Shown here one piece after another: positions 16,372 through 36,454 of a stretch of 39,131 nucleotides of DNA; the stretch's first letter is position 1, and every line of letters begins with the position of its first letter. The notes beneath the pieces are model-generated. The model saw only the letters and a list, made by a program, of their open reading frames with translations, was not told the origin of the DNA and did no database searches. The stretch comes from a virus. The stretch lies in IMG/VR virus record IMGVR_UViG_3300044630_007080, positions 1 through 39,131 of that record; one strand, 5' to 3'. Position numbers and translations under genes: made by a program.

Positions 16372-16385
16372 AGAGAAGAATATAA

Positions 16386-17522: not shown

Positions 17523-17536
17523 GAGAATATACAAAT

Positions 17537-18682: not shown

Positions 18683-20244
18683 TCTTTATAGAAAGTATCT
18701 TTAAGATACTGATATAACGAAGGGGCTGTTTCTACAGCCTTTTTCCATTTTGTTTTCTTCTGTTCGAGTTTTTGAATCACAATAGAAAACTCTTGTTTAA
18801 GATCTGTACCAACAGGAAAGATGTGATTTAATAATGCGATATCGTTAGCATTCCAATTCATCCCTGCCGCTAAACAATTAATGCCTGGGTCTTCTTGAAA
18901 ATATCTCACAAAGTTTTTTTGATACATTGTTTGATAGTATAGACCCTGTGTTTGTAAATTATTAACTGTAGATGATAATTTAACGTAAGAGCGTTTTCCA
19001 ATATCTCGCCAATATTCCGAATCGTCGCGATGACTTAGTGCATAGTGCATTGAAACAAAATGTGCCCAATAGTTGAATTCGTCTTCGCATTTTAAATTAA
19101 ACTCATCTCGATCCCACTGACTTACGCTACCACGCAACAGCACACTACACAATGTTCGAGCAAATTCGTGTGTAGTAAGCAGCCCTGTGCTTTCTAATGG
19201 TTCGATAAATGCAGCACTTAGTCCTAAAGCAACAACATTTTTTTCCCATAAACGTTCATGAATGCCTACACGCATTTTTATATCTCTAAATTCACAATCG
19301 GTTGGATCAAGCCCTTTAGAAACTAGATGTTGTATAAAATCTGTTTTGGCTTGTTCCGGAGTTATGTATTTGTCGCTGTACACATAGCCTGTACCAATTC
19401 TTGACCATAACGGAATATTCCAAACCCAACCGTTGTCTAGTGCTGTGCAGTCTGTTACAGCATTCAGTTGAGATTCTTTATCAGTGTAATTAATTCTTGT
19501 AGCCCAAGCTCGATTGTTGGGCAGAAGATTTTCATAACTTTTAAATGGAACCTGTAATGCTTCTCCTAACAGCATAGATTTAAATCCAGTGCAGTCAACG
19601 AATAAATCGCCTGTGATTATTTCGCCGTTGTCCAATGTCAACGATGTGATCCCTGTTTCGTTTGTACCAACATCAACGACTTCTGCAGCAACGTGTACAA
19701 CTCCTCGAGGCTTGCAATGTTGATCACGCAACCAAATGCCTAGTTTTGCTGCATCAAAATGAAATGCAGTATCATTATAAAAATTAAAATTATCTAATTC
19801 TATATTGTCAACGCTGATCTTATTAGCATTGACCAATGCCATTTGGGAATAATAACAATTAACATAATCATCTGTTGATGTTTCTGGATACAATGCTTTT
19901 TTAATAAACCAATCATCTTTGAGATGTAGATTTCCAGTCAAACAAGGAAGGCCAAATGGATAATACCAAGTACCTGTATCTTTACTATAAAAGTTATTAA
20001 ACTTAATGGCGAGTTTATATGACGCATCAGTGGCTTTCATAAAATCGCGATCAGTTATTCCGACCATCCTAAGCCATCCGCGAATTCCTCCCACGGTGCT
20101 TTCGCCAACTCCTACAGTAGGAATACTAGGAGATTCGATGACTGTGATATTTTTATCTTTTAATTGCGTGACTAGAGATGCAGCAACAATCCAACCTGCA
20201 CTGCCTCCTCCAACAATTACAATATTTTTAATTTTTTGGCTCAT
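18679..20244 (-). CDS. Tryptophan halogenase family flavoenzyme
   Basis: The product has 521 aa, the usual length for flavin-dependent halogenases. It shows the N-terminal FAD-binding VGGGSAGW (residues 11-18), VGVGEST (44-50), and Lys77 in ASYKLAIKF at the position of the catalytic lysine (Lys79 in PrnA). The halogenase signature WxWxIP is present as WVWNIP (273-278), and an EPLEST block (348-353) holds the Glu-Ser pair near the active site. All known landmarks are intact, so it is a credible halogenase using FADH2, O2 and chloride or bromide; the substrate may be a free indole, a peptide or a protein. It is the last gene of a three-gene minus-strand operon, and its start overlaps the upstream gene by 17 bases. 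No flavin reductase is seen in the window. Confidence 0.88.
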   Translation of the reverse strand: MSQKIKNIVIVGGGSAGWIVAASLVTQLKDKNITVIESPSIPTVGVGESTVGGIRGWLRMVGITDRDFMKATDASYKLAIKFNNFYSKDTGTWYYPFGLPCLTGNLHLKDDWFIKKALYPETSTDDYVNCYYSQMALVNANKISVDNIELDNFNFYNDTAFHFDAAKLGIWLRDQHCKPRGVVHVAAEVVDVGTNETGITSLTLDNGEIITGDLFVDCTGFKSMLLGEALQVPFKSYENLLPNNRAWATRINYTDKESQLNAVTDCTALDNGWVWNIPLWSRIGTGYVYSDKYITPEQAKTDFIQHLVSKGLDPTDCEFRDIKMRVGIHERLWEKNVVALGLSAAFIEPLESTGLLTTHEFARTLCSVLLRGSVSQWDRDEFNLKCEDEFNYWAHFVSMHYALSHRDDSEYWRDIGKRSYVKLSSTVNNLQTQGLYYQTMYQKNFVRYFQEDPGINCLAAGMNWNANDIALLNHIFPVGTDLKQEFSIVIQKLEQKKTKWKKAVETAPSLYQYLKDTFYKD

Positions 20245-20959
20245 AAGGACACTGTTTTATTCTTTCTTCTTTCAATGAAGTGTATCTGTCATCGAGTGGT
20301 CTAAAGGTATCGGCCTGTCTAATATTGTTGCATAATTTAATTTCTTCCCAAGGAGTAGAACTTGGCACTAACTTGATCAGTTGATCTGAGTGAAATTTAA
20401 AGTATGCTATAGCATCGCCTTTTTTAATAACTATTTTTTCTTGGTTTGATCTAATTTCAAATACCAGCTCAACAGGTCTAGTCCACTTGCTGATATTAAA
20501 TTCTCCTGGAATTACTGCGGTTTTTTCAGTAAATTCGTTATGATGCATAAACGCAGGCAATACCTGCATCAGCACAGATTCGTCGCTGGTAAAAACATTA
20601 AGCCAGTCTATCCCAATAAGAGGAAATGGATTGGTTTCACTGTTATAATCTTCTAAAAATCGAGTATCGATTAGGTTGTCAAATACTTCTTGAGTTAAAT
20701 TTATACTGGTTACTGCTCTATTAGAATCAGTAATAGCGATGTCTAATGTAATATCAAACGGTGCTAAGAAAACAAATGTATTTTTTAAAAAATCAGTATG
20801 TGCAGGGCATTTTAAAAAAGTCGATCCTTTTCTAGTAGTCGCTATAATTTTTGTTAAATTTTTGTAAGGGTAGGTATCATCAAGTAGAGATTTCACACAA
20901 TCTAAATGATCAGTGTCCCATTGATGACTTGTGATAAAAGACCAGCGAACTATTTTCAT
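20228..20959 (-). CDS. Unrecognised protein between two halogenases
   Basis: The product has 243 aa and I do not recognise a family with confidence. Visible landmarks are a short N-terminal RWSFITSHQW segment, CPAHTDFLKNTFVFLAPFDI (about residues 51-70), and a second conserved-looking part PGEFNISKWTRPVELVFEI (about 151-169), followed by KKGDAIAYFKF. The strand-rich second half resembles a cupin or jelly-roll-like fold, but no clear metal triad is visible. Similar unknown proteins are, as far as I recall, found in marine T4-like phages. It overlaps the upstream halogenase by 4 bases (ATGA) and the downstream one by 17 bases, so the three are translationally coupled. That suggests a partner or substrate-handling role in the halogenation pathway, which is inference. 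Confidence 0.75.
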   Translation of the reverse strand: MKIVRWSFITSHQWDTDHLDCVKSLLDDTYPYKNLTKIIATTRKGSTFLKCPAHTDFLKNTFVFLAPFDITLDIAITDSNRAVTSINLTQEVFDNLIDTRFLEDYNSETNPFPLIGIDWLNVFTSDESVLMQVLPAFMHHNEFTEKTAVIPGEFNISKWTRPVELVFEIRSNQEKIVIKKGDAIAYFKFHSDQLIKLVPSSTPWEEIKLCNNIRQADTFRPLDDRYTSLKEERIKQCPYEPKN

Positions 20960-22425
20960 AGTTTAGTCAGCTCTGCGATACGGTCAACCTCCTTGCTGTG
21001 AGGCCTACTCCATATATGCCGATTCTTTTCGTGCTCGATATAATTTTTAACCAACAACTCGGCAGCTATGTCGTCGGAAATTGACAAATTTCGATTAGCT
21101 GGTTGATATCCCAGCTGTATCAACATCAAACTCCAATTAGACCCCCCAAACATATAATTGTATTTTCCTGCATTAGGAACTGATATGTTTGAGTTGCTAA
21201 GTTCTTCAATAAAATGATTCATCCTGCTAGAAGGTTGAAATTTAGCATTGACCCAATTCCAAAATTTACTAGAACGAGAACTATTAGCATAATGCATGCT
21301 GACAAAATCCACACAGTCTTCAAATAATATTTTCATCTGTAGATTAAAATTAGTTCTATCGATATCACTAAAACGTCTTTCATAGATCGCACTGTTTAAT
21401 TGTCCTATACCGTAGGTGATTAATCCGATGCCTGTGCTTTCTAACGGTTCAATAAAACCAGCACTTAGCCCGATACTTACAACATTGCCAGCCCACTGAT
21501 CTTCATTATAAAACGGGTCCCAATCTATAACTCTGATGTTTTCTTTTTTAATTCGATTGTCCCAGTGATCAACAAAATAGTCTTTGGCTTCGTCAATGTC
21601 TGTGATATCACGATTGAATACCATACCGCTACCGATTCTAGATGCTACTCCAATTTTCCAGATCCATCCGTGATCGACCGCCTCACATTCTGCATACGGT
21701 TTAAACTCAGCTGCACGATTTTGATACGGGATCGGACATGCAATTGCAGTGTTCACAAAAAGTCGATCGCTAAGGTCAATTCGGTTAGTAGGCTTACGCA
21801 ACACATTTTTAAATCCAGTGCAATCGATGTACAGATCACTTTGTATTAATTCTTTATTTTTTAATTCTAAAGATTCTATAGCATTCGAGTCTGTGTAGTT
21901 GACTTTCATTACATCAGAACGAATAATGTTGATTTTATCTTTTAATTTTTCCTGCAAAAATACAACTAACTTTCCGCAATCGACATGAAACGCATAATTA
22001 TCGATGCTGTTAGCATCCAACGCATTATAATCTATTGATACATCATAGCAGGACAGTGCATATTTTTTAAAATCCAGATGTTGATTGCATGACCAACTAT
22101 CCCAAACATTAACGCTGTTGCGTAGTTTTCGGTTGCCCTTATAAAACGGATGCCAAATATTGTCGTTAGGATGCCGCCAATTAGAAAATAATATTCCAGA
22201 CTTGTATCCGGTGTCCAATGCAGAAAACCAATCTTCTATTTTAAAACCACATTCTTCCATGAAAGGTTTGAAACTTAACAGTGTAGCTTCACCTACGCCA
22301 ATTGGGGTTCCTATTTCTTTATCAACCACTGTTATCTTAATATCTGGTTGATTTTTGTACAGATATGCCGCGGCGAGCCACCCGCTGGTTCCGCCTCCTA
22401 CAATGGTTATACTAGACACGTTCAT
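20956..22425 (-). CDS. Tryptophan halogenase family flavoenzyme, WxWxIG variant
   Basis: The product has 489 aa. The FAD-binding VGGGTSGW (residues 9-16), IGVGEAT (42-48), Lys75 in TGYKSGILF (catalytic lysine position) and EPLESTG (326-332) are intact. The signature WxWxIP reads WIWKIG (254-259), so the last Pro is Gly. The start has a good GAGGAAA ribosome binding site and a NATAARTA box upstream. It is the first gene of a minus-strand operon with the 243-aa unknown and a second halogenase. It is divergent, across 74 bp, from an oxygenase operon on the plus strand. Its function is probably halogenation of an aromatic substrate; the substrate is unknown. Confidence 0.85.
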   Translation of the reverse strand: MNVSSITIVGGGTSGWLAAAYLYKNQPDIKITVVDKEIGTPIGVGEATLLSFKPFMEECGFKIEDWFSALDTGYKSGILFSNWRHPNDNIWHPFYKGNRKLRNSVNVWDSWSCNQHLDFKKYALSCYDVSIDYNALDANSIDNYAFHVDCGKLVVFLQEKLKDKINIIRSDVMKVNYTDSNAIESLELKNKELIQSDLYIDCTGFKNVLRKPTNRIDLSDRLFVNTAIACPIPYQNRAAEFKPYAECEAVDHGWIWKIGVASRIGSGMVFNRDITDIDEAKDYFVDHWDNRIKKENIRVIDWDPFYNEDQWAGNVVSIGLSAGFIEPLESTGIGLITYGIGQLNSAIYERRFSDIDRTNFNLQMKILFEDCVDFVSMHYANSSRSSKFWNWVNAKFQPSSRMNHFIEELSNSNISVPNAGKYNYMFGGSNWSLMLIQLGYQPANRNLSISDDIAAELLVKNYIEHEKNRHIWSRPHSKEVDRIAELTKL

Positions 22426-22450
22426 ATATTTCCTCAGACTTGATGTAATG

Positions 22451-22458
22451 TACTTATA
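22451..22458 (-). promoter_or_regulatory. NATAARTA promoter-like box TATAAGTA
   Basis: TATAAGTA on the minus strand lies 25 bases before the ATG of the halogenase at 22425. It differs from the T4 late consensus at one position. The same 25-base spacing is seen for CATAAGTA before the halogenase at 31130, which makes a regulatory role more likely than chance alone. Confidence 0.4.
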
Positions 22459-22484
22459 TTTTTTTTGATGGCCGCTGTTAATTT

Positions 22485-22492
22485 CATAAATA
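22485..22492 (+). promoter_or_regulatory. T4-late-like promoter box CATAAATA, close to start codon
   Basis: CATAAATA lies only 7 bases before the ATG at 22500, and no ribosome binding site is visible. With T4 late spacing (the box ends at -6), transcription would begin about two bases before the ATG, giving an almost leaderless message. Confidence 0.4.
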
Positions 22493-22499
22493 TCGCAAT

Positions 22500-23087
22500 A
22501 TGATACAGATTATCGATGACTTTATATCAGCTGATTTTCAAGAAGAGATTAAACACACGCTGCTTGGGCATAGTTTCCCATGGTACTTTACTGAAGATAT
22601 TACTTTTGGAAAATCTCTAGTCGAATCTCAAAATCTAGGCCAGCCTCATCCTGCTCACGCACATCTATTTTGTAGGAACAAGAAGCCTACAAGCAACTAC
22701 TTTGACCTAGTACTGCCGTTAGCACATTTTGGAGCATCGGCAGCAAATTTTAAATTTAATAATGTTGTGCAGTGCAGGAGTTTTTTGCAGTATCCGTTAA
22801 GCAATGATTTTTTAGAGAAGAATATAGATAAACTGCATATTGATTTACCGTACGACCATTTGGTGGTATTATATTACGTCATCGATTCCGACGGAGACAC
22901 ATTAATTGTTGATAAAGTTAGAAAAGGCAACATCGAAGAATATCATCATAGTGCCGAGGATTACAAAATACTGCAACGAGTAAAGCCAAAACAAGGTCGA
23001 GCAGTGATATTTGATGGTAAGTATTATCATACCGCAGAACAACCATCAACGAATATGCGTTGTATTATTAATTTTGATATCGTATAA
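22500..23087 (+). CDS. 2-oxoglutarate/Fe(II) oxygenase, prolyl-hydroxylase-like (FPW type)
   Basis: The product has 195 aa. It has an N-terminal IIDDFIS and a FPWYF block (26-30). The double-stranded beta-helix core has iron ligands His113 and Asp115 (HID), a YYVIDSDGDT strand (125-134), distal His177 (YYHT) and Arg187 ten residues later, which would bind the 2-oxoglutarate carboxylate. All expected residues are present, so it should be a functional hydroxylase of protein residues or small molecules. It is the first of four overlapping plus-strand oxygenase genes; its TAA overlaps the next ATG by one base. It belongs with 23087, 28946 and 31159 in one FPW subgroup. The substrate is unknown. 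Confidence 0.85.
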   Translation: MIQIIDDFISADFQEEIKHTLLGHSFPWYFTEDITFGKSLVESQNLGQPHPAHAHLFCRNKKPTSNYFDLVLPLAHFGASAANFKFNNVVQCRSFLQYPLSNDFLEKNIDKLHIDLPYDHLVVLYYVIDSDGDTLIVDKVRKGNIEEYHHSAEDYKILQRVKPKQGRAVIFDGKYYHTAEQPSTNMRCIINFDIV

Positions 23088-23701
23088 TGATCAACAGTAA
23101 AATACATGTAATAGATAACTTTTTACCAGACCTTGAATTTTTAAAATTACAAGAACATGTACTGTCGGTTAATTTTCCTTGGTTCTATTGCGAACATGTA
23201 TCACTGGCGCCTGAAGACAATGTAATTCAAGATCCGTTAGCAGTCGAGACTGATGGGTTCCATCATATTTTTTATGATAAAGAATACAAAGTTCAGAGTT
23301 TTACCTATGACTATCTAGATAATTTTTTAAAACGATTGGAAGAATCTCTAGGTTTTACACAAGAACATCTTGTGAGATTCAGGGCCAGTATGAAAAGTCC
23401 TAAAGTTAATTTTACTGAAAAAAATTACAACTTGCCCCATGTGGATTATTTTTTTCCTCATGAGACCATGATATATTACCTCAACGACTCAGACGGCGAT
23501 ACTCGTATATTTGATCAAGAGTTTGAAGCCACAACGAATAATTTTGGAATCGGTCACCACGATACATTCACAACAAAACATCAAATAACTCCAAAAGCCA
23601 ATCGATTACTTTGGTTTAACGGTTTTAGGTATCACACAGCCAGCAACCCAATAAATTCTAATAGAAGAGTTATCCTTAACATTAATTTACTACCACGATG
23701 A
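23087..23701 (+). CDS. 2-oxoglutarate/Fe(II) oxygenase, prolyl-hydroxylase-like (FPW type)
   Basis: The product has 204 aa. The N-terminal HVIDNFL and FPWFY (30-34) blocks match the preceding gene. The active-site residues are His118 and Asp120 (HVD), a strand YYLNDSDGDTRIFD (130-143), His183 (RYHT) and Arg193 ten residues later. It is clearly paralogous to the gene at 22500, with about the same length and layout, so the pair looks like a tandem duplication that has diverged. The start codon shares a base with the upstream stop, and the next gene starts in an ATGA overlap, so translation is coupled. The role is hydroxylation of an unknown substrate. Confidence 0.85.
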   Translation: MINSKIHVIDNFLPDLEFLKLQEHVLSVNFPWFYCEHVSLAPEDNVIQDPLAVETDGFHHIFYDKEYKVQSFTYDYLDNFLKRLEESLGFTQEHLVRFRASMKSPKVNFTEKNYNLPHVDYFFPHETMIYYLNDSDGDTRIFDQEFEATTNNFGIGHHDTFTTKHQITPKANRLLWFNGFRYHTASNPINSNRRVILNINLLPR

Positions 23702-24312
23702 GATTAGATCACCTGTTTCCAATTCCTATTGTTAGAATATCCGTCGATCCGTCGATGGTTGAGAACACGCGATCTCTAGTCAATCAATATATAGATTCTG
23801 AAAAACTCATAAGCCCGGACACTGCCCATACCGAATTGTTGACTACGTTTTATGACAGTAAGGATTTTTTAGGTAAGCTAAACGACCGATCTCTTTTAAA
23901 CTTTATAAATGCTAAATCAAGAGAATTTTTAAATCTTCGAGGATTTGATCCGAAGTGTTATTTAGAAATAACTTCGTGGCTACAGCTATATCCGCCCGGA
24001 ACACATTTTAATAAACATGATCACTACGGCGCAATTATCAGCGGTGTTTTATATTTAGAAACACCGCCTGGCTGTGGCAATATAAGATTTTATAATCCAA
24101 ACACTGGACGCAGAGCAACTGATGTATTTTTTGATCGAATAAAGATAACATCAAATGAATACAACTACAGTTATGTCGAATATACTCCGATAAAAGGTGA
24201 AATGATAATGTTTGAATCTTGGCTAGAACACTCAGTTGATATGAATGTAGCAACTGAAAATAGAATTGCAATTTCTTTTAATATTTGGGGAGATACACAT
24301 GCCCAAAGTTGA
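23698..24312 (+). CDS. 2-oxoglutarate/Fe(II) oxygenase-like protein, HxH type
   Basis: The product has 204 aa. It starts with the LFPIPIVRI segment common in the 2OG-FeII_Oxy_5 type family (PF13759/TIGR02466-like). The core has H107-D-H109 followed by ISGVLYLETPPGCGNIRFYNP (strand and turn), distal His178 (LEHSV) and Arg189 eleven residues later. The usual HxD pair is thus HxH, a pattern shared by four further genes here (24299, 27017, 27664, 28326). Whether the second His is an iron ligand or the motif is offset is uncertain. It is third in the overlapping plus-strand oxygenase operon. Confidence 0.78.
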   Translation: MRLDHLFPIPIVRISVDPSMVENTRSLVNQYIDSEKLISPDTAHTELLTTFYDSKDFLGKLNDRSLLNFINAKSREFLNLRGFDPKCYLEITSWLQLYPPGTHFNKHDHYGAIISGVLYLETPPGCGNIRFYNPNTGRRATDVFFDRIKITSNEYNYSYVEYTPIKGEMIMFESWLEHSVDMNVATENRIAISFNIWGDTHAQS

Positions 24313-24880
24313 AATGTGGTTTCCTGTTGCAGTATATCAGGAAGATAATTTAATTTCTCAAGAAGAAAATACAGAATTAGTAAACTATTCGTTGGAACTT
24401 CGAAAAAAGGTTCCATCTGGCGGAGAAGATTGGTATGGTGATACGTACAATACTCATGGCACATACGATCTTAGAAAAGATATCAAATTTCGACCACTAT
24501 TAAATTTGATATCGATGCATGCAAACAATTTTGCTAAAATGCATAACTCCGATGCCAGCTACGAGATCAGTTATGCATGGCTTAACATCAATACCGAAAA
24601 CACCTATCAAGAATTACATACGCATAACAGTGCTATTTTTAGTTGTTCTTATTATCTGTCTGCTCCGTCTGGCAGCGGCGGAATAGTGTTTGAGGATCCT
24701 AAAGAACCTGATATGTTTCCATTAAAGGCAATCGGGGAGAAAAATTCTTTAAGTTTCACTCGAATAAAATATCCAGCAACTGAAAGATCCTTGCTGATAT
24801 TTAGATCATATCTAAGACACATGGTTCAGCCCGGATCTAACATCGAGCCTAGAATTTCGATAGCTGTTAATTTTATATAA
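24299..24880 (+). CDS. 2-oxoglutarate/Fe(II) oxygenase-like protein, HxH type
   Basis: I chose the ATG at 24299 (193 aa) rather than the more upstream one at 24266. It is preceded by a GGGGAGA ribosome binding site, and the protein then begins with the MWFPVAVYQ segment matching the family start. The core has H107-T-H109, then SAIFSCSYYLSAP and a SGSGGIVFEDP turn, distal His174 (LRHMV) and Arg185. It overlaps the upstream gene by 14 bases. It ends two bases before the convergent methyltransferase gene, without a visible terminator. The substrate is unknown; the family often hydroxylates proteins or peptides, but this is not established for phage members. Confidence 0.78.
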   Translation: MPKVEMWFPVAVYQEDNLISQEENTELVNYSLELRKKVPSGGEDWYGDTYNTHGTYDLRKDIKFRPLLNLISMHANNFAKMHNSDASYEISYAWLNINTENTYQELHTHNSAIFSCSYYLSAPSGSGGIVFEDPKEPDMFPLKAIGEKNSLSFTRIKYPATERSLLIFRSYLRHMVQPGSNIEPRISIAVNFI

Positions 24881-24882
24881 AT

Positions 24883-25524
24883 TTATCTGTTGTATCTTAT
24901 ATTTGGATTGATTTTTTCTAGTACAAACATATATCCTAGACAATTTTCAAAATCAGTATCGGTTACAAACGGTATCTCTTTTGCCAATATTACTTTAAAA
25001 AAGTTAGAAGAATAATATTCTATTTCCCCCAAAAATATCGGCGGCGGCATACACGAATCTATAATAGGCTGACACGGACTACCTGTTATAATAATCAGCT
25101 TTCCGTTATCAGCTAATAAGATATTCAATTTTTCAAAAATTTCTTGTAATCTATTTTTGTAATTATGTAAAAATCCTCTATCGTAAATTACATCAAATTT
25201 TTTGTCTGTAGTTCCTTGAAAAAAATCTGTTGCTATAAAATTTACTTTAGAATTTATATGTATTTTTTTTGATAATTCTATTACGTCTTCTGAAATATCT
25301 ATAGCTGTAACATTAAATCCTCGATCAGCAAGATATACGCTGTCGTATCCGCTTCCGCATCCTAATTCTAAAAGTTCACCAGCATTTAAATCAACAGAAT
25401 CTAAAAATTGTTTCAGGTTCGGATCAACTGTTTTGATCTCCCAAGGAATAACATCGCTATTATTTTTAGAAGCGAATTTTACTTTTCCTTTATAAACGTT
25501 TTTCCAATATGTATTATCGTCCAT
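24883..25524 (-). CDS. Class I SAM-dependent methyltransferase, TPMT-like
   Basis: The product has 213 aa. The SAM-binding motif LELGCGSGYDS (52-62) is followed by an acidic end of the second strand in VTAIDIS (72-78). A DFF element and FDVIYDRGFLH precede the third conserved block, and a later strand GKLIIITG closes the core. The N-terminal YWKNVY and PWE elements and the IYDRGF block recall the thiopurine/thiol (TPMT) methyltransferase superfamily, which also includes halide and thiocyanate methyltransferases. The substrate cannot be read from the sequence. It is the last gene of a minus-strand operon with a halogenase and two oxygenases, so it probably modifies the same product. Confidence 0.82.
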   Translation of the reverse strand: MDDNTYWKNVYKGKVKFASKNNSDVIPWEIKTVDPNLKQFLDSVDLNAGELLELGCGSGYDSVYLADRGFNVTAIDISEDVIELSKKIHINSKVNFIATDFFQGTTDKKFDVIYDRGFLHNYKNRLQEIFEKLNILLADNGKLIIITGSPCQPIIDSCMPPPIFLGEIEYYSSNFFKVILAKEIPFVTDTDFENCLGYMFVLEKINPNIRYNR

Positions 25525-25551
25525 GATAGTTTTTGATTAAATTTGTCTATT

Positions 25552-27024
25552 TTATATAAGTTTTTTATTTCGAATTGATGAAATAAATTCTTTATGGCTT
25601 ACAGTGGGATTCATTTTTTCAAGAGTTCTAGTTTCTCGTATGAAATTTTCAGCAACATTTTTTATATCATGATGCATCATATCGTACTCTTGTTTTATTT
25701 TTACTCGATCAAATAAATCTAATCCGGCAAGCACCTGTAGATAATGTGCATCTCGAAACAAAACATACGCAGTCTGACTATTGAAGTCGTCGACTATAGG
25801 TAAGTTTGTTCGCCATTTCTCTAAATTTTCTTTAAGTGAATCTGGAAGTTCTATTTGAGAAACATCTTTCCAAAATTGTGTATTGGTTTTATTTGTGATA
25901 TAATGTAATATTACAAAATCACGAATGTTCGTCATTATATCGTTTACATCTTTGTTGTATTTTTCAATAGTCTTTTCAGTGTAGTTAGGCAAGCGATGCA
26001 TTAATAGAAACGCCTGTTGGATACTGGTGCCTATTGATGTGGCCTCCAACGGCTCGATGAAATTAGCACTCAGCCCAATAGCACAACAATTCTTAATCCA
26101 CACACGATCTAAATGTCCAGGATCAAAATTAATATGCTTTCCGACAGTTATTTCATGCCCTAAAAATTTCTCAACCTCGGCCTTGGCCTGTTCTGCATTG
26201 ATGTAATCACTGTCAAAAATATATCCGTTTCCACATCTACCCCAAACAGGAATATTAAACATCCATCCGTAGTCCATTGCTTGTGCAGTGGTCCACATAT
26301 TGTATTCTTCTTTTTCTTCGGTCGGAAAAACTATTGCAGATTTCATTTTAAGATATTTGCTATGTGATTGCCAGGTAGCTCCTAGTTTAGATATCAACAA
26401 TTTTTTAAATCCTGTACAGTCGATATAGAAATCTGAAGAATAGGTATTATGTTCTCCTACTAACTGTTTGATATCCCCAGCATTAGACAACTGCACATCT
26501 AAGATTTCGTCGTCAATCACATCGATGCCTCGAATTCCTGCAATTTTAGTGAGGAAATCGTTTAATTTGTTAGTATTAAAATGGTATTGATTGAAAGGAG
26601 ACCCGCTGTCTGGTTCTAGATGTTTAGCATATACTTTGTTTTCCCAAACAAGGCTGGGATTAAGCATATGATTCGGTGCTCTAGAGCTTAACAATTTTCC
26701 GTATACTGTAGGATATTGTCCGTTTTTGATATCATTTTCTGGACCTATGCTGTGTAGGTAATCTTGTTTGCCCCATCCCTTAAACATAATTCCACATTTA
26801 AATGTGGCGTCGCAGTGCCTGATTACAGTTTGAAAAGGAACATTTATATATTTCATAAACTCGTTCCAGTGTTCGGTGCTGCCTTCACCAACACCTATAA
26901 TACCAATTTTTTTGGAACGGATCACTTCAACCTGTAAATGAGGAAATCTTGTTTTTAAAATTAATGCAGCAGTAAATCCTGCGGTTCCGCCGCCGACCAC
27001 TGATATTTTTTCTAATTTATTCAT
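25552..27024 (-). CDS. Tryptophan halogenase family flavoenzyme, WxFxIP variant
   Basis: The start chosen is the ATG at 27024 (490 aa), which gives MNKLEKISVVGGG at the FAD-binding end and overlaps the upstream stop by 8 bases; an upstream ATG at 27069 would add 15 unrelated residues. VGGGTAGF (10-17), IGVGEGS (43-49) and Lys76 (ATFKCGIMF) are present. The signature is WMFNIP (254-259), with Phe for the second Trp. The block is EPLEATS (324-330), with Ala where Ser usually follows Glu. The fold is clearly halogenase-like, but these two changes make activity or halide handling less certain. It sits between two oxygenases and the methyltransferase. Confidence 0.85.
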   Translation of the reverse strand: MNKLEKISVVGGGTAGFTAALILKTRFPHLQVEVIRSKKIGIIGVGEGSTEHWNEFMKYINVPFQTVIRHCDATFKCGIMFKGWGKQDYLHSIGPENDIKNGQYPTVYGKLLSSRAPNHMLNPSLVWENKVYAKHLEPDSGSPFNQYHFNTNKLNDFLTKIAGIRGIDVIDDEILDVQLSNAGDIKQLVGEHNTYSSDFYIDCTGFKKLLISKLGATWQSHSKYLKMKSAIVFPTEEKEEYNMWTTAQAMDYGWMFNIPVWGRCGNGYIFDSDYINAEQAKAEVEKFLGHEITVGKHINFDPGHLDRVWIKNCCAIGLSANFIEPLEATSIGTSIQQAFLLMHRLPNYTEKTIEKYNKDVNDIMTNIRDFVILHYITNKTNTQFWKDVSQIELPDSLKENLEKWRTNLPIVDDFNSQTAYVLFRDAHYLQVLAGLDLFDRVKIKQEYDMMHHDIKNVAENFIRETRTLEKMNPTVSHKEFISSIRNKKLI

Positions 27025-27667
27025 CTTTATTTTTTTCCGGAACTTGAAATTTATAATTTCCCGATACACTTATGCGATAATTATCAGACGTGTAAAATGG
27101 AGACACCGAATGATTTAACGGTGCAGGAAATAAAAAGAAATGATTTACCATATTACAATCTGCGCCAATATGCTGATGACATATTTTTCCTAGACTGTTT
27201 GTGTAGTGAAATGTGAAATGTCCAGCAAGCGGATTTAAAGATTCAGAACCAGGCGCCTGCGATTTTTCGTCTTCGATACTATAGGGAATATCAATCCAGA
27301 TTACAAAACTCAGTACACCGGTGTGAGAATGGGTGGGATTAAATTCATGTTTTTCTTGAAAGTTAACCCACATCGAATCTATAGCTAATAAACAATCAGA
27401 GTTTAGAACCGCCACTGAACTAAGATATCCAAACGAATTATCAAATTCCCAAACATATGGTTCTAATAGTTTATTAATATGATCTTTAGATTTAGTTAGC
27501 TCAAATTCTTTTCTAATGTTTCCGACCAGTTGATGATTATGTTTTTTAGATTGACTGAAATTATTTTGAATTTCTAAAATTTCTTCTCTAAGGGGAGCTA
27601 ACTCTTCGTCAGTGAGCACCGCGGTAATAACTCCAACGTTCGTAAATTGTAAAGTTTTTGCATTCAT
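27017..27667 (-). CDS. 2-oxoglutarate/Fe(II) oxygenase-like protein, HxH type
   Basis: The product has 216 aa. The core has WVNFQEKHEFNPTHSH, giving H113-S-H115, then a VLSFVIWIDIPY strand, an insertion of about 20 residues, HFTFHYTN, a FLFPAPLNHSV element with His186, and Arg198 twelve residues later. The layout matches the HxH subgroup, though the SGV block typical of the family is replaced by LSFVIW. It overlaps the upstream oxygenase in an ATGA and the downstream halogenase by 8 bases, so the genes are tightly coupled. The role is probably hydroxylation of an unknown substrate. Confidence 0.75.
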   Translation of the reverse strand: MNAKTLQFTNVGVITAVLTDEELAPLREEILEIQNNFSQSKKHNHQLVGNIRKEFELTKSKDHINKLLEPYVWEFDNSFGYLSSVAVLNSDCLLAIDSMWVNFQEKHEFNPTHSHTGVLSFVIWIDIPYSIEDEKSQAPGSESLNPLAGHFTFHYTNSLGKICHQHIGADCNMVNHFFLFPAPLNHSVSPFYTSDNYRISVSGNYKFQVPEKNKDE

Positions 27668-28287
27668 GTTAATTTAATCTTTAAGTTATCTACAGTTAAG
27701 TCAGAACCAAATTCTCCAAACGTAAATGAATTAAAACCTATAATTCTACGATCAGTTGGATGTAAATTTGAGCTTACTTGATGACTAACCCAACTTGGGA
27801 ATATTACAAGCATATTTGGTTTTAACCCCAATGTCCAGCTTTTAGAATTTAATAAATTATATTCATCTACGGTGTAATCAAATTGGAATTTTTTCGAAAA
27901 TGCAGGCTCGAACAGTAGTTCTAAATCGCCGCTATCAATGTCAATATATAACACACCAGAAAAAATACTGTTACCGTGAAAATGTTCAGCATGAAATGTA
28001 TTTTGCGGATTACGTGTTGCCCAGCTATCGGTTATAGCAAACTGATTTTTAATTTTTAAAATATCGTGTACATAATGATTTAACGATTCTTGTAGGTCCG
28101 TTTTTAAATCTTTAAATTCTTCTAAATCTAATATTTGACGATTTTTTGAAATATAATTATTGCCGCCACCACCTGACATTTTTTCTTCTAAACTTGTTAA
28201 AGTTAAGTATTCAGTCGAAGATAATTTTCGATAATCTTCAACGATGAACAATGGGATACTTGCTAACGGAATGAGTAATTCTTTCAT
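27664..28287 (-). CDS. 2-oxoglutarate/Fe(II) oxygenase-like protein, HxH type
   Basis: The product has 207 aa. After an N-terminal IPLFIVEDY and a GGGG linker (39-42), the core has H102-F-H104 followed by GNSIFSGVLYIDI, a beta strand LELLFEP, then LVIFPSWVSHQV with His169, and R180-R181 in DRRIIGF. It is the first gene of the minus-strand operon that ends with the methyltransferase. No Shine-Dalgarno is obvious before the ATG, and the upstream region is shared with the divergent gene at 28326. The family assignment is good; the substrate is unknown. Confidence 0.78.
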   Translation of the reverse strand: MKELLIPLASIPLFIVEDYRKLSSTEYLTLTSLEEKMSGGGGNNYISKNRQILDLEEFKDLKTDLQESLNHYVHDILKIKNQFAITDSWATRNPQNTFHAEHFHGNSIFSGVLYIDIDSGDLELLFEPAFSKKFQFDYTVDEYNLLNSKSWTLGLKPNMLVIFPSWVSHQVSSNLHPTDRRIIGFNSFTFGEFGSDLTVDNLKIKLT

Positions 28288-28313
28288 TTTATTTTTAGTA
28301 CTGCAATAAATTC

Positions 28314-28321
28314 CATAAATA
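28314..28321 (+). promoter_or_regulatory. T4-late-like box CATAAATA touching the start region
   Basis: CATAAATA ends 4 bases before the ATG at 28326, with no ribosome binding site between. With normal late-promoter spacing, transcription would start inside the start codon. So either the spacing differs, the box is coincidental, or the true start lies further in. Confidence 0.3.
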
Positions 28322-28325
28322 ATCG

Positions 28326-28943
28326 ATGTTTAAACTAACTGAGAATTTGCTATTTGTAACGTCGTGCTTTACTACTTATGTCGACAGTATTAATCATACC
28401 GACATAGTTGATGCAATAGAAAGAATTCAGAAAGAAGAACCAGGGAATCAACGAAGTAATCAGGGCGGATTTCAGTCGATGGTTAAACACTCTCCCGATT
28501 TTGATAATTCAGAAACCATTAGACTTTTTAATGATGTAATTTTTCCAGCGGCACAGTTAGTCGGTAAAGCGTGGTCAATCCCATCAGAGATGGACAAGGT
28601 AGCATATTGGTATAATGTTAATTACAAATATTCTTCAAATCGAGAACATACACATCCAAATTCTTTTTTAAGCGGTGTTTATTATATCAAAGTTCCGCAA
28701 GACAGCGGAAACATCATGTTTTTAAGAGCAAATTCTGAACATGATAAAATGGAATTTATACATCAACTTATAACAGAAAAAAACTTACAAATTGATAATA
28801 ATCGAATCAATACCGAACATTGGTTTGCACCAGCGGAAGGAATGTTAATTTTGTTTCCGGGACACCTAACACATTACGTTCGACAAAATTTAACCAATGA
28901 TACAGACGATCGAAGAATCTCGTTGTCGTTTAATTTTTATTAG
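28326..28943 (+). CDS. 2-oxoglutarate/Fe(II) oxygenase-like protein, HxH type
   Basis: The product has 205 aa and shows the clearest 2OG-FeII_Oxy_5 pattern in the window: YWYNVNYKYSSNREHTHPNS with H108-T-H110, then FLSGVYYIKVPQDSGNIMF, and the C-terminal LILFPGHLTHYV with His183 and R196-R197 in DRRISLSFNF. It is a single plus-strand gene between two minus-strand operons and ends two bases before the convergent oxygenase gene. No Shine-Dalgarno is visible; a CATAAATA box sits immediately upstream. The substrate is unknown. Members of this family occur widely in cyanophages. Confidence 0.82.
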   Translation: MFKLTENLLFVTSCFTTYVDSINHTDIVDAIERIQKEEPGNQRSNQGGFQSMVKHSPDFDNSETIRLFNDVIFPAAQLVGKAWSIPSEMDKVAYWYNVNYKYSSNREHTHPNSFLSGVYYIKVPQDSGNIMFLRANSEHDKMEFIHQLITEKNLQIDNNRINTEHWFAPAEGMLILFPGHLTHYVRQNLTNDTDDRRISLSFNFY

Positions 28944-28945
28944 GA

Positions 28946-29596
28946 TTATTCAGTTTCAAAATCAAAATTAATCACTATCCGTGAACTGTAAGTTATGGGA
29001 TAATTTCCAGCATGATATCGGTGCCCGTTAAAAAACAATCCTTGACCTTTTCTTGGAGTTATTCTTGTTAATTCAGGAAGGGGATCAGCAAATACCGGGT
29101 TATATATTTCTTCTTGGGGATTAAAAATCTTATCAAAAATAATAGTATCACCGTCGCAATCGTTTACATAATATACAAGAGTTGAATAAGGATGCCCGGT
29201 ATTAAAGTCTACATGCGGCGCAGCATATTTAAAACCGTCATGTCCTTTACCTTTGTGCGTATAGCGCAATCGTATTCTTAAAATATTAGTTACTTTGATG
29301 TTTGTTTTTTCTGTAAAAAATTCTAATATTGCCCTAAAGAAGTCGTAGTGTGGTGATGCATGATTGCCATCAAATGCCATATGGAAAAAACCGACATCGT
29401 CGGTTATGTTCGGGTCAACATACTTGGGTGTAGTTCCTACTCCGTAATGATCTGGATGCCCAATACGGTGTAATAAAAACCACGGAAAATGTTGATCTCC
29501 TTGAACCCTTTCAATTACAGCATTTTGAAAAGTCTCAGGAATTACATTGTCGATGACTAAAATTTCATCTTTGATTTTGTTAATTTGATAAGCCAC
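28946..29596 (-). CDS. 2-oxoglutarate/Fe(II) oxygenase, prolyl-hydroxylase-like (FPW type)
   Basis: The product has 216 aa with a GTG start; no other in-frame start is close to the family N-terminus. The blocks are LVIDNVI and FPWFL (37-41), then APHVD with His128 and Asp130, the strand VYYVNDCDGDTIIFD (141-155), RYHAG with His195, and Arg206 eleven residues later. It belongs to the same subgroup as 22500 and 23087. It overlaps the upstream halogenase (29580) by 17 bases, so it is translationally coupled to it. Function: hydroxylation of an unknown substrate. All expected iron and co-substrate residues are present. Confidence 0.83.
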   Translation of the reverse strand: MAYQINKIKDEILVIDNVIPETFQNAVIERVQGDQHFPWFLLHRIGHPDHYGVGTTPKYVDPNITDDVGFFHMAFDGNHASPHYDFFRAILEFFTEKTNIKVTNILRIRLRYTHKGKGHDGFKYAAPHVDFNTGHPYSTLVYYVNDCDGDTIIFDKIFNPQEEIYNPVFADPLPELTRITPRKGQGLFFNGHRYHAGNYPITYSSRIVINFDFETE

Positions 29597-31130
29597 GATC
29601 TAATCTAATTTTTCTAAAATAATTTATAAATTCTTCGTAGGATTGATAATTTCTAATTTCTTTAGCAAACTCTTCTTGTAGATCGTAGTATGCCTGCGCA
29701 GTAATATCTCGCATGTTTCCGTGAATTGGGATTGAAAAATCTAATTCAGACAATGCCGACGTGTTGTTTAGTCTTTTGATGCCTGCCATGACATAACTAT
29801 ACAGTGCCCACCCTGCAGAACCGGCGTATCGAGGAAAATCATGTGATGTGGGTAGTCTTGTTTTTGCCATCTCTAACAAATCCTCAACAAACGGAGTTTT
29901 TGTAACGCCTGTATTAATGTATTTCCAAAATTCAGTGTCAGATCGCCCGCCCATATAGTGCATTACTAAAAAGTCTTTAACATCGTCGAACATTTTTCGA
30001 GTTCTATGATTATAGATATTTTGTGATCCTGCGTTTATTGTATCATCTAATGTGGACTTGATGTACTCAAATATCAAAGTCCTGCCTTGCACTATAGTTG
30101 AATGGATCGATGTTGCTTCTAACGGCTCTAAAAATGCAGAGCTGAGTCCGATGGTTATACAGTTGTTGATCCATGCTGCATCTTGTCTGCCAGTATCAAA
30201 TTTAATAACTTTAATCGGATCAATTTCTTGACCTAGAATTGTTTCAATTTCTTCCTGTGCCTTGTCCGGAGTAGTAAATGCATCACAAAATACATAGCCA
30301 CATCCTTTTCGATCCATCAACGGAATTTGCCACATCCATCCGTTTTTTTGTGCCCATGCAGTAGTGTACGATTCCGGAATCTCATTTTGTTTATATTTTA
30401 GTTGAAACGGTAGTCCAGTATTTAACGGAAGATTTTTTTGATAACTGACCCACTTGTTTCCTGGCATGTGCTTCATTAACACTCTACCAAACCCAGAACA
30501 ATCAATAAACAAATCTCCGTCTACAGTCCCACCACTTTTTAAAACAACAGATTTAATAAATCCTTTTTCGTTAAGAACTACATCAACAACTTCGTCGTCG
30601 ACATGCCTGGCATTGCGCTCAGCTAGACATTTCTTTTTAAAATATTTTCCAACCAGCACTGCATCAACGTGCATGGCATGTCGATAATTGGCAAATTGAT
30701 TGGTATCTTTTTCAAAATTGGATACACCCTTATCAATCCAGTATCCGCACTGCGAAACATTAACTAATTGGCTTGGATGCAAGCGATTAAGACCGTAAGC
30801 AAATAACGCATCGGGCGTGGCTTCTTTGGTATGACTGCCGTCGATTGGACCAAGATAGTAGTCATCGATATTATTAGTCCACCCTTTGTGCTTGATTGCA
30901 TATTTTAACGTGGCTCCGGTTTCGATAATAAACTCGTCGTGATCACAACCAAAGTCTGCGCCATGGTTAACTAAGATATCAGTTAGGTAGCCTGTTGTAC
31001 TTTCCCCAACTCCAATCACACCAATTTTAGTAGATTCAATAACAGTAATATTATGATTTGGATGGCGCTTGGTTGCCATTAGGGCAGTTGCCCACCCTGC
31101 CGTTCCTCCGCCCACTATTACAATTTGCAT
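29580..31130 (-). CDS. Tryptophan halogenase family flavoenzyme
   Basis: The product has 516 aa. VGGGTAGW (6-13), IGVGEST (39-45) and Lys76 (ATLKYAIKH) are present. The signature WMWQIP (265-270) is a perfect WxWxIP. The later block reads EPLEATS (335-341), so Ala339 stands where Ser follows Glu in PrnA-type enzymes; the same change occurs in the 25552 gene. The start has an AAGGA ribosome binding site and a CATAAGTA box 25 bases upstream. It is followed by a coupled oxygenase (28946) and preceded by another oxygenase (31159). It is probably an active or specialised halogenase; the substrate is unknown. Confidence 0.87.
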   Translation of the reverse strand: MQIVIVGGGTAGWATALMATKRHPNHNITVIESTKIGVIGVGESTTGYLTDILVNHGADFGCDHDEFIIETGATLKYAIKHKGWTNNIDDYYLGPIDGSHTKEATPDALFAYGLNRLHPSQLVNVSQCGYWIDKGVSNFEKDTNQFANYRHAMHVDAVLVGKYFKKKCLAERNARHVDDEVVDVVLNEKGFIKSVVLKSGGTVDGDLFIDCSGFGRVLMKHMPGNKWVSYQKNLPLNTGLPFQLKYKQNEIPESYTTAWAQKNGWMWQIPLMDRKGCGYVFCDAFTTPDKAQEEIETILGQEIDPIKVIKFDTGRQDAAWINNCITIGLSSAFLEPLEATSIHSTIVQGRTLIFEYIKSTLDDTINAGSQNIYNHRTRKMFDDVKDFLVMHYMGGRSDTEFWKYINTGVTKTPFVEDLLEMAKTRLPTSHDFPRYAGSAGWALYSYVMAGIKRLNNTSALSELDFSIPIHGNMRDITAQAYYDLQEEFAKEIRNYQSYEEFINYFRKIRLDRGLSN

Positions 31131-31155
31131 ATTGTTCCTTAGATAATTAATTTAA

Positions 31156-31163
31156 TACTTATG
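31156..31163 (-). promoter_or_regulatory. NATAARTA promoter-like box CATAAGTA
   Basis: CATAAGTA on the minus strand lies 25 bases before the halogenase ATG at 31130 and overlaps the stop codon of the upstream oxygenase gene. The spacing is the same as for TATAAGTA before the halogenase at 22425. Confidence 0.35.
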
Positions 31164-31764
31164 CGTATGTAACCACAAATACAACTCGTCTGGAGCACAT
31201 CTCCGGAAAACGGTGAGCGTGCCACATTTCAGGAAATGTAACAGCAGTATATTGTTCACACGGCAGAATATAACTGGTGGAAAAATCGTTAGGCCATACT
31301 ATTGTTTGCCCTTGTTTACAGGTATTTAGATACATTATAAAATTATAATGCGGCCATTTGTGATCTCTGTGAGGTTCAGTATGCCCCGACCCGTTATGCC
31401 AATTTAGATTTAAATTAGCTCGAAATATTTTTTTATATTTTAACCCGTGTTCGATCATAAATCTATGAAAGATTTCTATAAAAAATTCGTAAAAATCGCC
31501 GAAGTGGTTAAGAGGTCTGTCTGTATGATCGACTGATTCGTCTTCGGTCCTGCGTAGTAATGTATGACTAAGAAACGCAGAATTAATATGACTCATATAA
31601 GGTCTCATCGATTCGGGCAAATACTCGGGAGATTTATTCATAGTTTGCTGACCAACATAAAACCAAGGAAACATCTCTCCCATGATCACAGTCTCGATGA
31701 TTTCTTGCTCTCGTGGAGAAACAGACACAGCAGCACGAGTAATTAGATCCAATGGCATGTTCAT
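31159..31764 (-). CDS. 2-oxoglutarate/Fe(II) oxygenase-like protein (FPW type, divergent)
   Basis: I place the start at the ATG at 31764 (201 aa). A GTG at 31779 would add five residues and an ATG at 31758 would remove two; none has a clear ribosome binding site. The FPWFY block near the N-terminus links it to the 22500/23087/28946 subgroup. The core has PHRD (His and Asp about residues 130-132), then a PHYNFIMYLNT strand, QGQTIVW, a FPEMWHAHRF element with the distal His, and an Arg pair in CSRRVVF. The DGDT block of the others is replaced by KQGQT. It is first in a minus-strand operon with a halogenase and an oxygenase. The substrate is unknown. Confidence 0.75.
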   Translation of the reverse strand: MNMPLDLITRAAVSVSPREQEIIETVIMGEMFPWFYVGQQTMNKSPEYLPESMRPYMSHINSAFLSHTLLRRTEDESVDHTDRPLNHFGDFYEFFIEIFHRFMIEHGLKYKKIFRANLNLNWHNGSGHTEPHRDHKWPHYNFIMYLNTCKQGQTIVWPNDFSTSYILPCEQYTAVTFPEMWHAHRFPEMCSRRVVFVVTYA

Positions 31765-31833
31765 GGTTATATTTAACACAGCGTATTATTCTTATTTGTC
31801 AAACCGAAACTTTAAATCTATGTACAATACAGT

Positions 31834-31841
31834 GATAAGTA
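31834..31841 (+). promoter_or_regulatory. NATAARTA promoter-like box GATAAGTA
   Basis: GATAAGTA lies 28 bases before the ATG at 31870, followed by an ACGGAG ribosome binding site. It sits in the 105-bp divergent region between two oxygenase operons, the longest gap in the window. I see no other clear element there. Confidence 0.35.
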
Positions 31842-31869
31842 ATAAACAAAACTACTAACGGAGTATTTT

Positions 31870-32493
31870 ATGACCCCAGACTCACCCGAAATTTCCTTTG
31901 AAAATTCTGATAATTTTACCGATTTAGCAGAATTTAGCAATGCTAAAAAAGCAACACTAGACATTGTATCAATTAATAAATCAAAGTTGTTTACAAAAGA
32001 ACAATGTGCTGAAATTTTAAATAATGCCATCGAAGAATTATGGCTACCTACAAGAATAATCGGCGACAATAAATTGCATGTTGCTCGACGCCAAAAAGTT
32101 CGAGGAGACTTAACAGGATTCCCATTCATGAACATTCGAACAGTTACTAAAGATGCTAACGACGAAATATATGATTTTAATTTATTAGGAATCATCGATC
32201 AAGATTTTCCTCAATTGTTTAAGTATTCTGAAAAAGAATATTATAATTGGCATATTGATTTAAATGTAATGATGCCGTCGAGAAAAATAACATTCATAGT
32301 TAACCTTTCGGATCCCAGTGAATATACAGGTGGAGAAATTGAGTTTTTAAACATTGATACGGCTACTGCTGATATCAACGAGCAAGGAGCATGTTTGATA
32401 TTTCCCTCATACATGCCGTATAAAATTAATCCCGTTAAAACCGGCAACAACTGTATTTTAGTAGGACATGTTCACGGAGCACTTTTTAAGTGA
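31870..32493 (+). CDS. 2-oxoglutarate/Fe(II) oxygenase-like protein with broken active site
   Basis: The product has 207 aa. The HID pair is kept (His128, Asp130 in NWHID), followed by a KITFIVNLSDP strand and the YTGGEIEF turn. The C-terminal part aligns with the next gene through IFPS and NPV-x-x-G, but Tyr184 stands where the distal iron-binding His should be, and Asn194 stands where the 2-oxoglutarate-binding Arg should be. It is therefore probably inactive as a classical dioxygenase, or works differently. An ACGGAG site precedes the ATG. The next gene, with an intact triad, starts in a 4-base GTGA overlap, so the two products may form a hetero-complex. Confidence 0.78.
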   Translation: MTPDSPEISFENSDNFTDLAEFSNAKKATLDIVSINKSKLFTKEQCAEILNNAIEELWLPTRIIGDNKLHVARRQKVRGDLTGFPFMNIRTVTKDANDEIYDFNLLGIIDQDFPQLFKYSEKEYYNWHIDLNVMMPSRKITFIVNLSDPSEYTGGEIEFLNIDTATADINEQGACLIFPSYMPYKINPVKTGNNCILVGHVHGALFK

Positions 32494-33275
32494 TATTAAA
32501 ATATAATTATTGGTATTTTTTATCGGCCATACCACCCGGTGTTTGCGACCAAATAATTGAAGCCGGACTGTCGGCAATGCACGAACAAGAAGCAAAGTAT
32601 GGCAAGGATGCATCTAACGCCTCAGTAGGTGGCTGGCGACAAAAAACCAACGATGATCGAATACCTGCAAAATCAGCATCAATAAACGGTTTGCACAAAA
32701 AAGGGATCGATATTGACAAAACATATGTTCGTGATTCTAATGTATCGTGGCTCAATGATCCAGCAATATATGAGATTATTTGGGGATTTGTTAAGCAAGC
32801 AAACAAAGCCGCAGGTTGGAATTTTGATTGGGATTATACAGAAGATTTACAATTTACAAAATACAGTCCGGGGCAGTTTTACGGGTGGCATACTGATGTG
32901 GGGATAGAACCGTATAGAAGATTCGATCCGACTGTAGATACGTATCATACAAATCCAGACGGCTCAATTATGGTTGACACATTTGGAAATCCTCAAGTCG
33001 AGGATCAAGCAGCAACTGAAAATACAAATCAAATAGGCAAGATAAGAAAATTAAGTGTTACAATAAGTTTAAACGATCCAGCTGAATATAAAGGCGGAAA
33101 TTTAAAATTCGATCTTGGGCCACACGGAAAAACTCGTTATCATACATGTAAAGAAATCCGACCCCAGGGATCGATTATTGTGTTTCCGTCTCACATTTAT
33201 CATCAAGTTACTCCAGTTACTAAAGGAACTAGATACAGTCTAGTAGCATGGAACTTAGGAAAGCCATTTAAATGA
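32490..33275 (+). CDS. 2-oxoglutarate/Fe(II) oxygenase, PKHD-type
   Basis: The product has 261 aa and starts at GTG within a GTGA overlap with the upstream gene. The core has KYSPGQFYGWHTD with His134 and Asp136, an insertion of about 40 residues, KLSVTISLNDPAEYKGG (187-203), then VFPSHIYHQVTPV with His238 and Arg248 in KGTRYS. This is the classic PiuC/PKHD hydroxylase pattern with all ligands present. The N-terminal half contains GGWRQKTNDDRIP. Paired with the degenerate upstream protein, it may supply catalysis for a two-subunit enzyme. It overlaps the next gene by 4 bases (ATGA). The substrate is unknown. Confidence 0.87.
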   Translation: MILKYNYWYFLSAIPPGVCDQIIEAGLSAMHEQEAKYGKDASNASVGGWRQKTNDDRIPAKSASINGLHKKGIDIDKTYVRDSNVSWLNDPAIYEIIWGFVKQANKAAGWNFDWDYTEDLQFTKYSPGQFYGWHTDVGIEPYRRFDPTVDTYHTNPDGSIMVDTFGNPQVEDQAATENTNQIGKIRKLSVTISLNDPAEYKGGNLKFDLGPHGKTRYHTCKEIRPQGSIIVFPSHIYHQVTPVTKGTRYSLVAWNLGKPFK

Positions 33276-33931
33276 ATAACCCAGAAGAATTTAAAAAAAA
33301 CAAATATCTCAATTTAAAAAAAGTTGTTCCTGTTGATCTTTGTAGAATTGTAACAAAATATGCACTGCTGAAAGAAGAACACGAGTTTTCCCCAGAAAAA
33401 GGCAACAATGCTCAAGTCAAAGATGCACACTCGGTGTACAGCGACACTCTTATGGAAACTATGATGCATTTTTTATTACCTCATATGGAGCATCATACCG
33501 GACTATCGCTGTGTCCTACATATACCTATTACCGAGTTTATCGGCCTGGGATGATTTTAGAAAGACACAAAGATCGACCTAGCTGTGAAATAAGCACAAC
33601 TGTGTGTTTTGGATTCAATTATAATTACATGGACCCTGGCTATCGATGGGGAATGTACGTTGACAAGGATTCATGGAATGTTGCTGGCCCTTCTGGAGAA
33701 TTTATCAGTGCTAAAAACACCGGGATAATGATAGATCAAGATCCAGGAGATTTAATAATTTATCGAGGCTGCGAAATAGAACATTGGCGAGACCCATTTA
33801 ATGCAGGCCCGAACAGCTATCAAGTACAGGCATTTTTTCATTATGTCGATAAAAACGGTCCATTTTACCCGGAATATGCTTACGATAAACGCCCTGGTAT
33901 CGGGTTCCGACTTGATAAAACGCATAAATAA
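33272..33931 (+). CDS. 2-oxoglutarate/Fe(II) oxygenase-like phage protein
   Basis: The product has 219 aa. The central block YRVYRPGMILERHKD supplies His99 and Asp101, and EIEHWRDPF supplies His171. No Arg follows at the usual ten to twelve residues; Arg173 lies next to the His, and the C-terminal strand reads YQVQAFFHYVD. This pattern recurs, as I recall, in T4-like cyanophages where it is annotated as an iron/2-oxoglutarate oxygenase, and co-substrate binding may use another residue. It overlaps the upstream gene by 4 bases. It is the third member of a plus-strand oxygenase operon and the last enzyme gene of the island. Confidence 0.8.
   Translation: MNNPEEFKKNKYLNLKKVVPVDLCRIVTKYALLKEEHEFSPEKGNNAQVKDAHSVYSDTLMETMMHFLLPHMEHHTGLSLCPTYTYYRVYRPGMILERHKDRPSCEISTTVCFGFNYNYMDPGYRWGMYVDKDSWNVAGPSGEFISAKNTGIMIDQDPGDLIIYRGCEIEHWRDPFNAGPNSYQVQAFFHYVDKNGPFYPEYAYDKRPGIGFRLDKTHK
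33923..33930 (+). promoter_or_regulatory. T4-late-like promoter box CATAAATA
   Basis: CATAAATA overlaps the end of the preceding oxygenase gene and lies 22 bases before the ATG of the tail assembly chaperone gene, followed by a GAGGAG ribosome binding site. This is the expected layout of a T4-type late transcript. Confidence 0.45.
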
Positions 33932-33952: not shown

Positions 33953-34390
33953 ATGATGATTAAAACATTTACAGTAGACAACATACAGGAAATTAAAGAT
34001 GCCTGCTATATCACAGGAGTTGACCAAGTATGGTGTCGTATCCTTTTTAAAGGATGTGTAAATCCGCATGAATTTTGCGCACACCCGAAATCCGAAAGCG
34101 AGTTTTCACGTGATTTATACGAAAGACTTAAATCAGGGCAATATGGTGAATTATCCCACGGTACAGGAATGTATAGAACTCAGCCTGCAGAACAAGCCGA
34201 CGTCGAAGCTAGAGTTGTTGCTAAAAGAAACCAACTATTATTAGAAAGTGATTATGTTGACTTGCCAACTACCCAAGCAAGATTCACTGATGTACAAAAA
34301 GCAGCGTGGGCTGCATATCGACAGACACTGCGAGATATTCCGGCAAGCTCAAGGTTTCCGTGGGATCCAGCTTGGCCAGTAACTCCTTGA
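33953..34390 (+). CDS. Phage tail assembly chaperone-like protein
   Basis: The product has 145 aa. The C-terminal half carries a pattern typical of phage tail/fibre assembly chaperones (PF16778-like): RNQLLLESDYVDLP, then a W-A-A-YRQTLRDIP block and a PWDPAWP ending. The N-terminal half (about 1-80) has the FTVDNIQEIKDA start and several Cys and His residues (C18, C28, C35, C42), which are unusual for this family and of unknown role. A GAGGAG ribosome binding site precedes the ATG (a second ATG follows immediately). In other phages such proteins assist tail fibre or tail tube assembly. It ends 14 bases before a strong terminator. Confidence 0.78.
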   Translation: MMIKTFTVDNIQEIKDACYITGVDQVWCRILFKGCVNPHEFCAHPKSESEFSRDLYERLKSGQYGELSHGTGMYRTQPAEQADVEARVVAKRNQLLLESDYVDLPTTQARFTDVQKAAWAAYRQTLRDIPASSRFPWDPAWPVTP

Positions 34391-34448: not shown

Positions 34449-36414
<1,966 letters not shown>

Positions 36415-36454
36415 AGTTTCTCCTGGAATTATGTACGTGCTTAATGCAGACACT

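Follow-up and report, generated by a model that had tools for sequence, protein, structure and literature searches.

The window, a 39,131-nucleotide stretch of viral DNA (IMG/VR record IMGVR_UViG_3300044630_007080), carries a gene, A, whose product belongs to a family that lacks the distal metal-binding His of 2OG oxygenases in every member and is encoded just upstream of a gene for an intact relative, B. We favour, with moderate confidence, the reading that A is a conserved pseudo-oxygenase and a non-catalytic partner of B, or of B together with the product of a third gene, C. A retains half of the metal site within a predicted PHD/P4H jelly-roll but has lost the distal His; under this proposal it would bind or position the substrate, or stabilise or regulate B.

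A degenerate oxygenase gene overlaps an intact one

The product of gene A matched PF13640 at 34.3 bits (cut-off 27) and phrog_61 at 1.5e-19, and its nearest solved proteins by sequence were the PKHD hydroxylases 3dkq and PiuC. The initial annotation had described a retained HxD pair (here H128-x-D130), a Tyr184 replacing the distal His and an Asn194 replacing the 2OG-binding Arg, and each of these residues was borne out. The intact site described for B was likewise present (H134-x-D136, H238, R248), with W254 in addition, and so was the 4-base overlap of the two genes, A ending at 32493 and B starting with GTG at 32490 (Table 1). The C-terminal parts of A and B aligned without gaps, as had been claimed, through the stretches INPVKTGNNCILVGHVHGALFK and VTPVTKGTRYSLVAWNLGKPFK; the equivalent A and B stretches were also joined by BLAST in L001 and L002. 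Counting the window copy, scans of viral contigs yielded 36 distinct A proteins; all family counts below refer to these, in window numbering.

Table 1 Positions in the window of genes A, B and C, of key codons and of neighbouring genes
Feature	Position	Strand	Residues or remarks
Gene A, 207-aa PHD/P4H-type fold protein (predicted), degenerate 2OG-oxygenase site	31870..32493	+	H128, D130, Y184, N194, H200, A-specific H70
His70 codon, A-specific His	32077..32079	+	35/36 in A; Lys/Arg/Asn in canonical sisters
Codons 128-130, H-x-D still present	32251..32259	+	H 36/36; D 22, E 14
Tyr184 codon, distal-His site	32419..32421	+	Y 27, W 5, F 4, zero His
Asn194 codon, 2OG-carboxylate site	32449..32451	+	K 26, R 2, N 3, A 3, M 2
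His200 codon; Trp there in canonical relatives	32467..32469	+	H 29, N 4, S 2, C 1
Gene B, intact 2OG oxygenase, PHD/P4H fold (predicted)	32490..33275	+	H134, D136, H238, R248, W254
GTGA overlap, A stop / B start	32490..32493	+	4 bp; exact in 33/36 distinct A-B pairs as called
Gene C, phrog_2954 protein, 'ferrochelatase' label	33272..33931	+	HxD...H triad invariant 38/38; after B in A loci, also near B without A
Tail-fibre assembly chaperone (PF16778)	33953..34390	+	Conserved downstream neighbour of A-B-C
Phage GroEL	34449..36113	-	Conserved downstream neighbour, most A loci
Flavin-dependent (tryptophan-type) halogenase	29580..31130	-	Usual upstream neighbour type

Predicted structures of A and B

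Structure prediction places both A and B in the PHD2/prolyl-4-hydroxylase (double-stranded beta-helix) fold. The AF2 model of A (pLDDT 81.5, pTM 0.78) was matched by VIA-align to PHD2 5l9r (Z 16.8, rmsd 3.0, 172 residues) and to vCPH 5c5t (Z 16.5, rmsd 2.8, 164 residues), and the best match of the B model (pLDDT 91.5, pTM 0.88) was the P. putida P4H 4iw3 (Z 17.1, rmsd 3.2, 178 residues). Predicted viral structures shared 12-26% identity with A among the matches listed. By alignment, F84 of A would correspond to PHD2 Trp258, and H200 of A (W254 of B) to PHD2 Trp389, a residue lining a cavity ~8 A from the iron (PMC13151054).

Loss and retention of active-site residues across the A family

The absence of the distal His from 36 of 36 family members exceeds chance. 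Since this residue is lost in every A protein and always replaced by an aromatic one, A is unlikely to carry out ordinary Fe(II)/2OG hydroxylation and presumably lacks turnover altogether. Of the conservation to be checked at the two substituted sites, only the loss of His held throughout. Trp or Phe stands in for Tyr in 9/36 proteins, so Tyr184 is not a conserved metal ligand, which rules it out as an iron ligand by family rule. Asn194 is found only in the window and two other proteins, and with Lys in 26/36 it was discarded as a defining trait of the family. Collagen P4H also has Lys at its 2OG site, and Lys194 was for this reason not counted as a loss; given its frequency, the 2OG-binding residue cannot be called lost across A proteins as a whole, Lys or Arg together occupying site 194 in 28/36.

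Other positions are held tightly. His128 and an acidic residue at 130 are invariant, as is His202 (36/36). Nineteen residues were conserved in at least 90% of A proteins and differed from the canonical sisters: I32, F41, I63, G65, H70, K76, R78, G79, F84, F86, R90, T93, Y101, L106, I108, I109, Q111, Q115 and N145. Most of them fall within residues 63-115, before or around the barrel mouth by alignment, and the decades of highest conservation were 100-109 and 110-119 (means 0.86 and 0.88). Conservation was 0.64-0.65 at residues 180-199, the strands where the distal His and the 2OG-binding Arg formerly stood.

This pattern leaves room for an unlikely alternative, namely that the site of A has been rebuilt so that the protein is active or at least binds metal, with His128 and Asp/Glu130 joined by His70 or His200 as a substitute for the distal His and with Lys194 holding 2OG in most members. 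The universal His128 and acid at 130, His70 in 35/36, His200 in 29/36 and a basic residue at 194 in 28/36 would all suit such a site, as would the alignment of site 200 with PHD2 Trp389 and its cavity. However, His200 gives way to Asn, Ser or Cys in 7/36 proteins, with at least four changes on the tree, 8/36 have Ala, Met or Asn at site 194, the window included, and His70 would lie, by alignment, in a loop at the mouth of the barrel. The invariant His128 and acidic 130 nonetheless go beyond the needs of a pseudoenzyme that is purely structural, and the A-specific His70 and His200, taken with them, speak against such a role. With the former pair kept in 36/36 and the latter two gained, new chemistry is conceivable for A. 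We hold it rather doubtful that A binds metal through such a rearranged site (His128, Asp/Glu130 and His70 or His200) and supports a non-canonical reaction, whether alone or as half of an A-B active complex.

The A-specific residues also bear on a further reading, that A functions as an independent binder of a ligand, a substrate or 2OG as a signal, makes no contact with B and is only co-transcribed with it. Eight of them (G65, H70, K76, R78, G79, R90, Q111 and Q115) lie before and around the mouth of the barrel by alignment and could form a ligand pocket. We rate this reading improbable but credible; the gene order that also bears on it is described below.

Distribution, phylogeny and selection

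A tblastn search of phage records returned 123 matches, all below 60% identity. The isolate matches inspected with the alignment shown had a distal His, as in 'PHRVRPVTKGKRISLVGWVHG' of S-CAM22, and the A family was not recognised among phage isolates at this level of identity; it is known here from environmental contigs only. Zero A-family relatives came up in a pattern scan covering one genome for each prokaryote species, and a cellular origin of A was rejected on that result.

A phylogenetic analysis placed the A proteins in one clade with support of 98/98. The sister clade comprised seven canonical proteins (L143, L145-L147, L149, L150 and L152), which are the nearest to A and carry His at site 184 in 7/7, Arg in six and Asn in one at site 194, and Trp at site 200 in 7/7. 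An eighth canonical protein, P-SSM7 ADO99070 (L005), sat on a long branch and its placement is unsure. The canonical relative at L149:980-1603 has a full metal triad and Asn replacing the 2OG Arg. Homologues with His and Arg restored, which had been raised as an argument against a degenerate family, exist in the neighbouring canonical clade only and number zero inside the A family. Loss of the distal His is most simply placed once, at the base of the A clade. Site 184 changed eight times in all on the tree and was aromatic in every state inside A; site 130 changed four times and was acidic in every state. His was lost at site 200 through at least four changes.

Purifying selection holds A as strictly as the intact enzyme B. 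NG86 dN/dS values for closely related pairs were 0.054-0.115 for A and 0.052-0.132 for B, the latter range omitting one pair with saturated synonymous sites, and 37 columns were invariant across the 18 A members first aligned. That gene A is decaying, or an artefact of assembly, is accordingly close to inconceivable: the lost catalytic residues fit it and nothing further does, and it is refuted by 36 distinct intact frames, a dN/dS of ~0.1, the invariant columns and a confident predicted fold. As selection preserves A, and A always lies just before an intact B, it is probably a partner protein and not a dying gene.

Pairing of A with B

A B-family gene lay downstream on the same strand of all 36 distinct A genes. 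The exceptions to the exact 4-bp overlap were L111, where the longest frame begins 39 bases further upstream, L026, where the called B frame starts 284 bases downstream of A, and L017, where a 261-aa gene parts A from B. The N-terminus of this inserted gene (L017:6582-7367) is similar by eye to that of the L034 gene (3735-4493) that immediately precedes A. The H-D-H-R-W set of B was intact in 34/34 A-paired partners scored and in 49/49 other B proteins, the latter including the B of L002, which is identical to the window copy and accompanies an A truncated at the contig end. Two residues, G132 and Q239, were specific to A-paired B proteins in comparison with unpaired ones. A and B were separate frames in all 36 cases; among them there was no natural A-B fusion and no single chain with a double DSBH.

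Strict conservation together with exclusive pairing with an intact relative argues for a partner role for B, in which we infer physical contact between A and B; an A-B heterodimer is plausible. The idea of a pseudoenzyme-enzyme pair, put forward in the initial annotation, gained from the conserved degeneracy (36/36), dN/dS of 0.05-0.12, adjacency in 36/36, the B triad in 34/34 and the same predicted fold, but loss of the 2OG residue does not extend to the family. Against the partner reading, phage operons commonly show conserved adjacency and overlapping of genes. The overlap by itself is weak evidence, since unrelated upstream genes also overlap B by 4 bp in L035 and L036. Short gene overlaps elsewhere in these operons, and the gene inserted in L017, fit the separate binding protein described above, whereas a free-standing protein does not require B nearby in 36/36 cases.

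A possible origin of A is suggested by L145, where a canonical A relative directly follows a B relative and both are intact by eye; A could go back to a pairing in which both enzymes were active.

Gene C and the genomic neighbourhood

The B-C overlap in the window is 4 bp, as for A-B. Despite its ferrochelatase label, C has an invariant 2OG-oxygenase HxD...H motif, and the usual basic 2OG position is Gly in 17 and Asn in 15 of its 38 proteins (32/38). Among B loci without A, a C relative was found within 2.5 kb in 36/48 by hand count of the listed loci. Many phages have B and C but lack A, and B therefore has no general need of A, which counts against the partner reading, as does the B-C overlap.

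The order A-B-C, tail chaperone and GroEL recurs in most loci, with a flavin halogenase upstream in many. The first two genes of the window are very large (1869 and 2540 aa), and the earlier one matches phage tail-fibre families. From the neighbouring genes alone, it is a reasonable guess that the target could be a protein of the phage tail or of another part of the virion.

Further features of the window were recorded. Three consecutive glycine-rich proteins, alike in layout, follow the large tail genes (15310-18682) and are possible hydroxylase substrates. Four flavin-dependent tryptophan-halogenase-like genes (18679-31130) differ in their WxWxIP motifs (WVWNIP, WIWKIG, WMFNIP and WMWQIP). 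About a dozen 2OG-oxygenase-like genes, assigned to PF13640/PF13759 or phrog_274/2954/61, occupy 11 kb on both strands (22500-33931), and the phage GroEL and GroES-like genes adjoin this cluster (34449-36453). The window GroEL shared 45-51% identity with phage-collection proteins among the matches listed; in the huge phage LR756501, GroEL and a canonical A relative lie ~11 kb apart.

Comparison with known systems

Marine phages encode many 2OG oxygenases of unknown purpose, and the A-B pair offers a testable handle on such clusters, through what A binds and whether B needs A. Flavin halogenases and 2OG oxygenases of the kinds seen here are carried by marine phages as auxiliary genes (Sullivan 2010, PMC3037559; review PMC10452541); the portions available of these two sources describe neither a degenerate oxygenase family nor its pairing. 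A narrow search of open-licence literature found no 2OG-oxygenase pseudoenzyme heterodimers or separate-gene pairs, and natural pairs of pseudoenzyme and enzyme encoded by separate genes seem to have been little documented in this group of oxygenases.

The canonical phage P4H-like 2OG oxygenases (phrog_61) resemble A in length, family and C-terminal VHG motif and are adjacent to it on the tree, whereas the combination of distal His, Arg194 (6/7) and Trp200 that marks the sister clade occurs in zero A members. A shares its predicted fold with PHD2/EGLN1, P. putida P4H, PBCV-1 vCPH and the PKHD hydroxylase PiuC, at 11-20% identity in structural alignments, and keeps HxD; it differs from them in lacking the distal His and, in the window copy, the basic 2OG residue. 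The nearest known arrangement is that of OGFOD1 and Tpa1p, in which an intact P4H-type catalytic domain is joined to a related second domain without a working metal site; the C-terminal domain of OGFOD1 'lacks a metal binding site' (PMC4396695). Unlike these one-chain proteins, A and B are encoded by two genes with the degenerate partner first, and A keeps His128 and Asp/Glu130.
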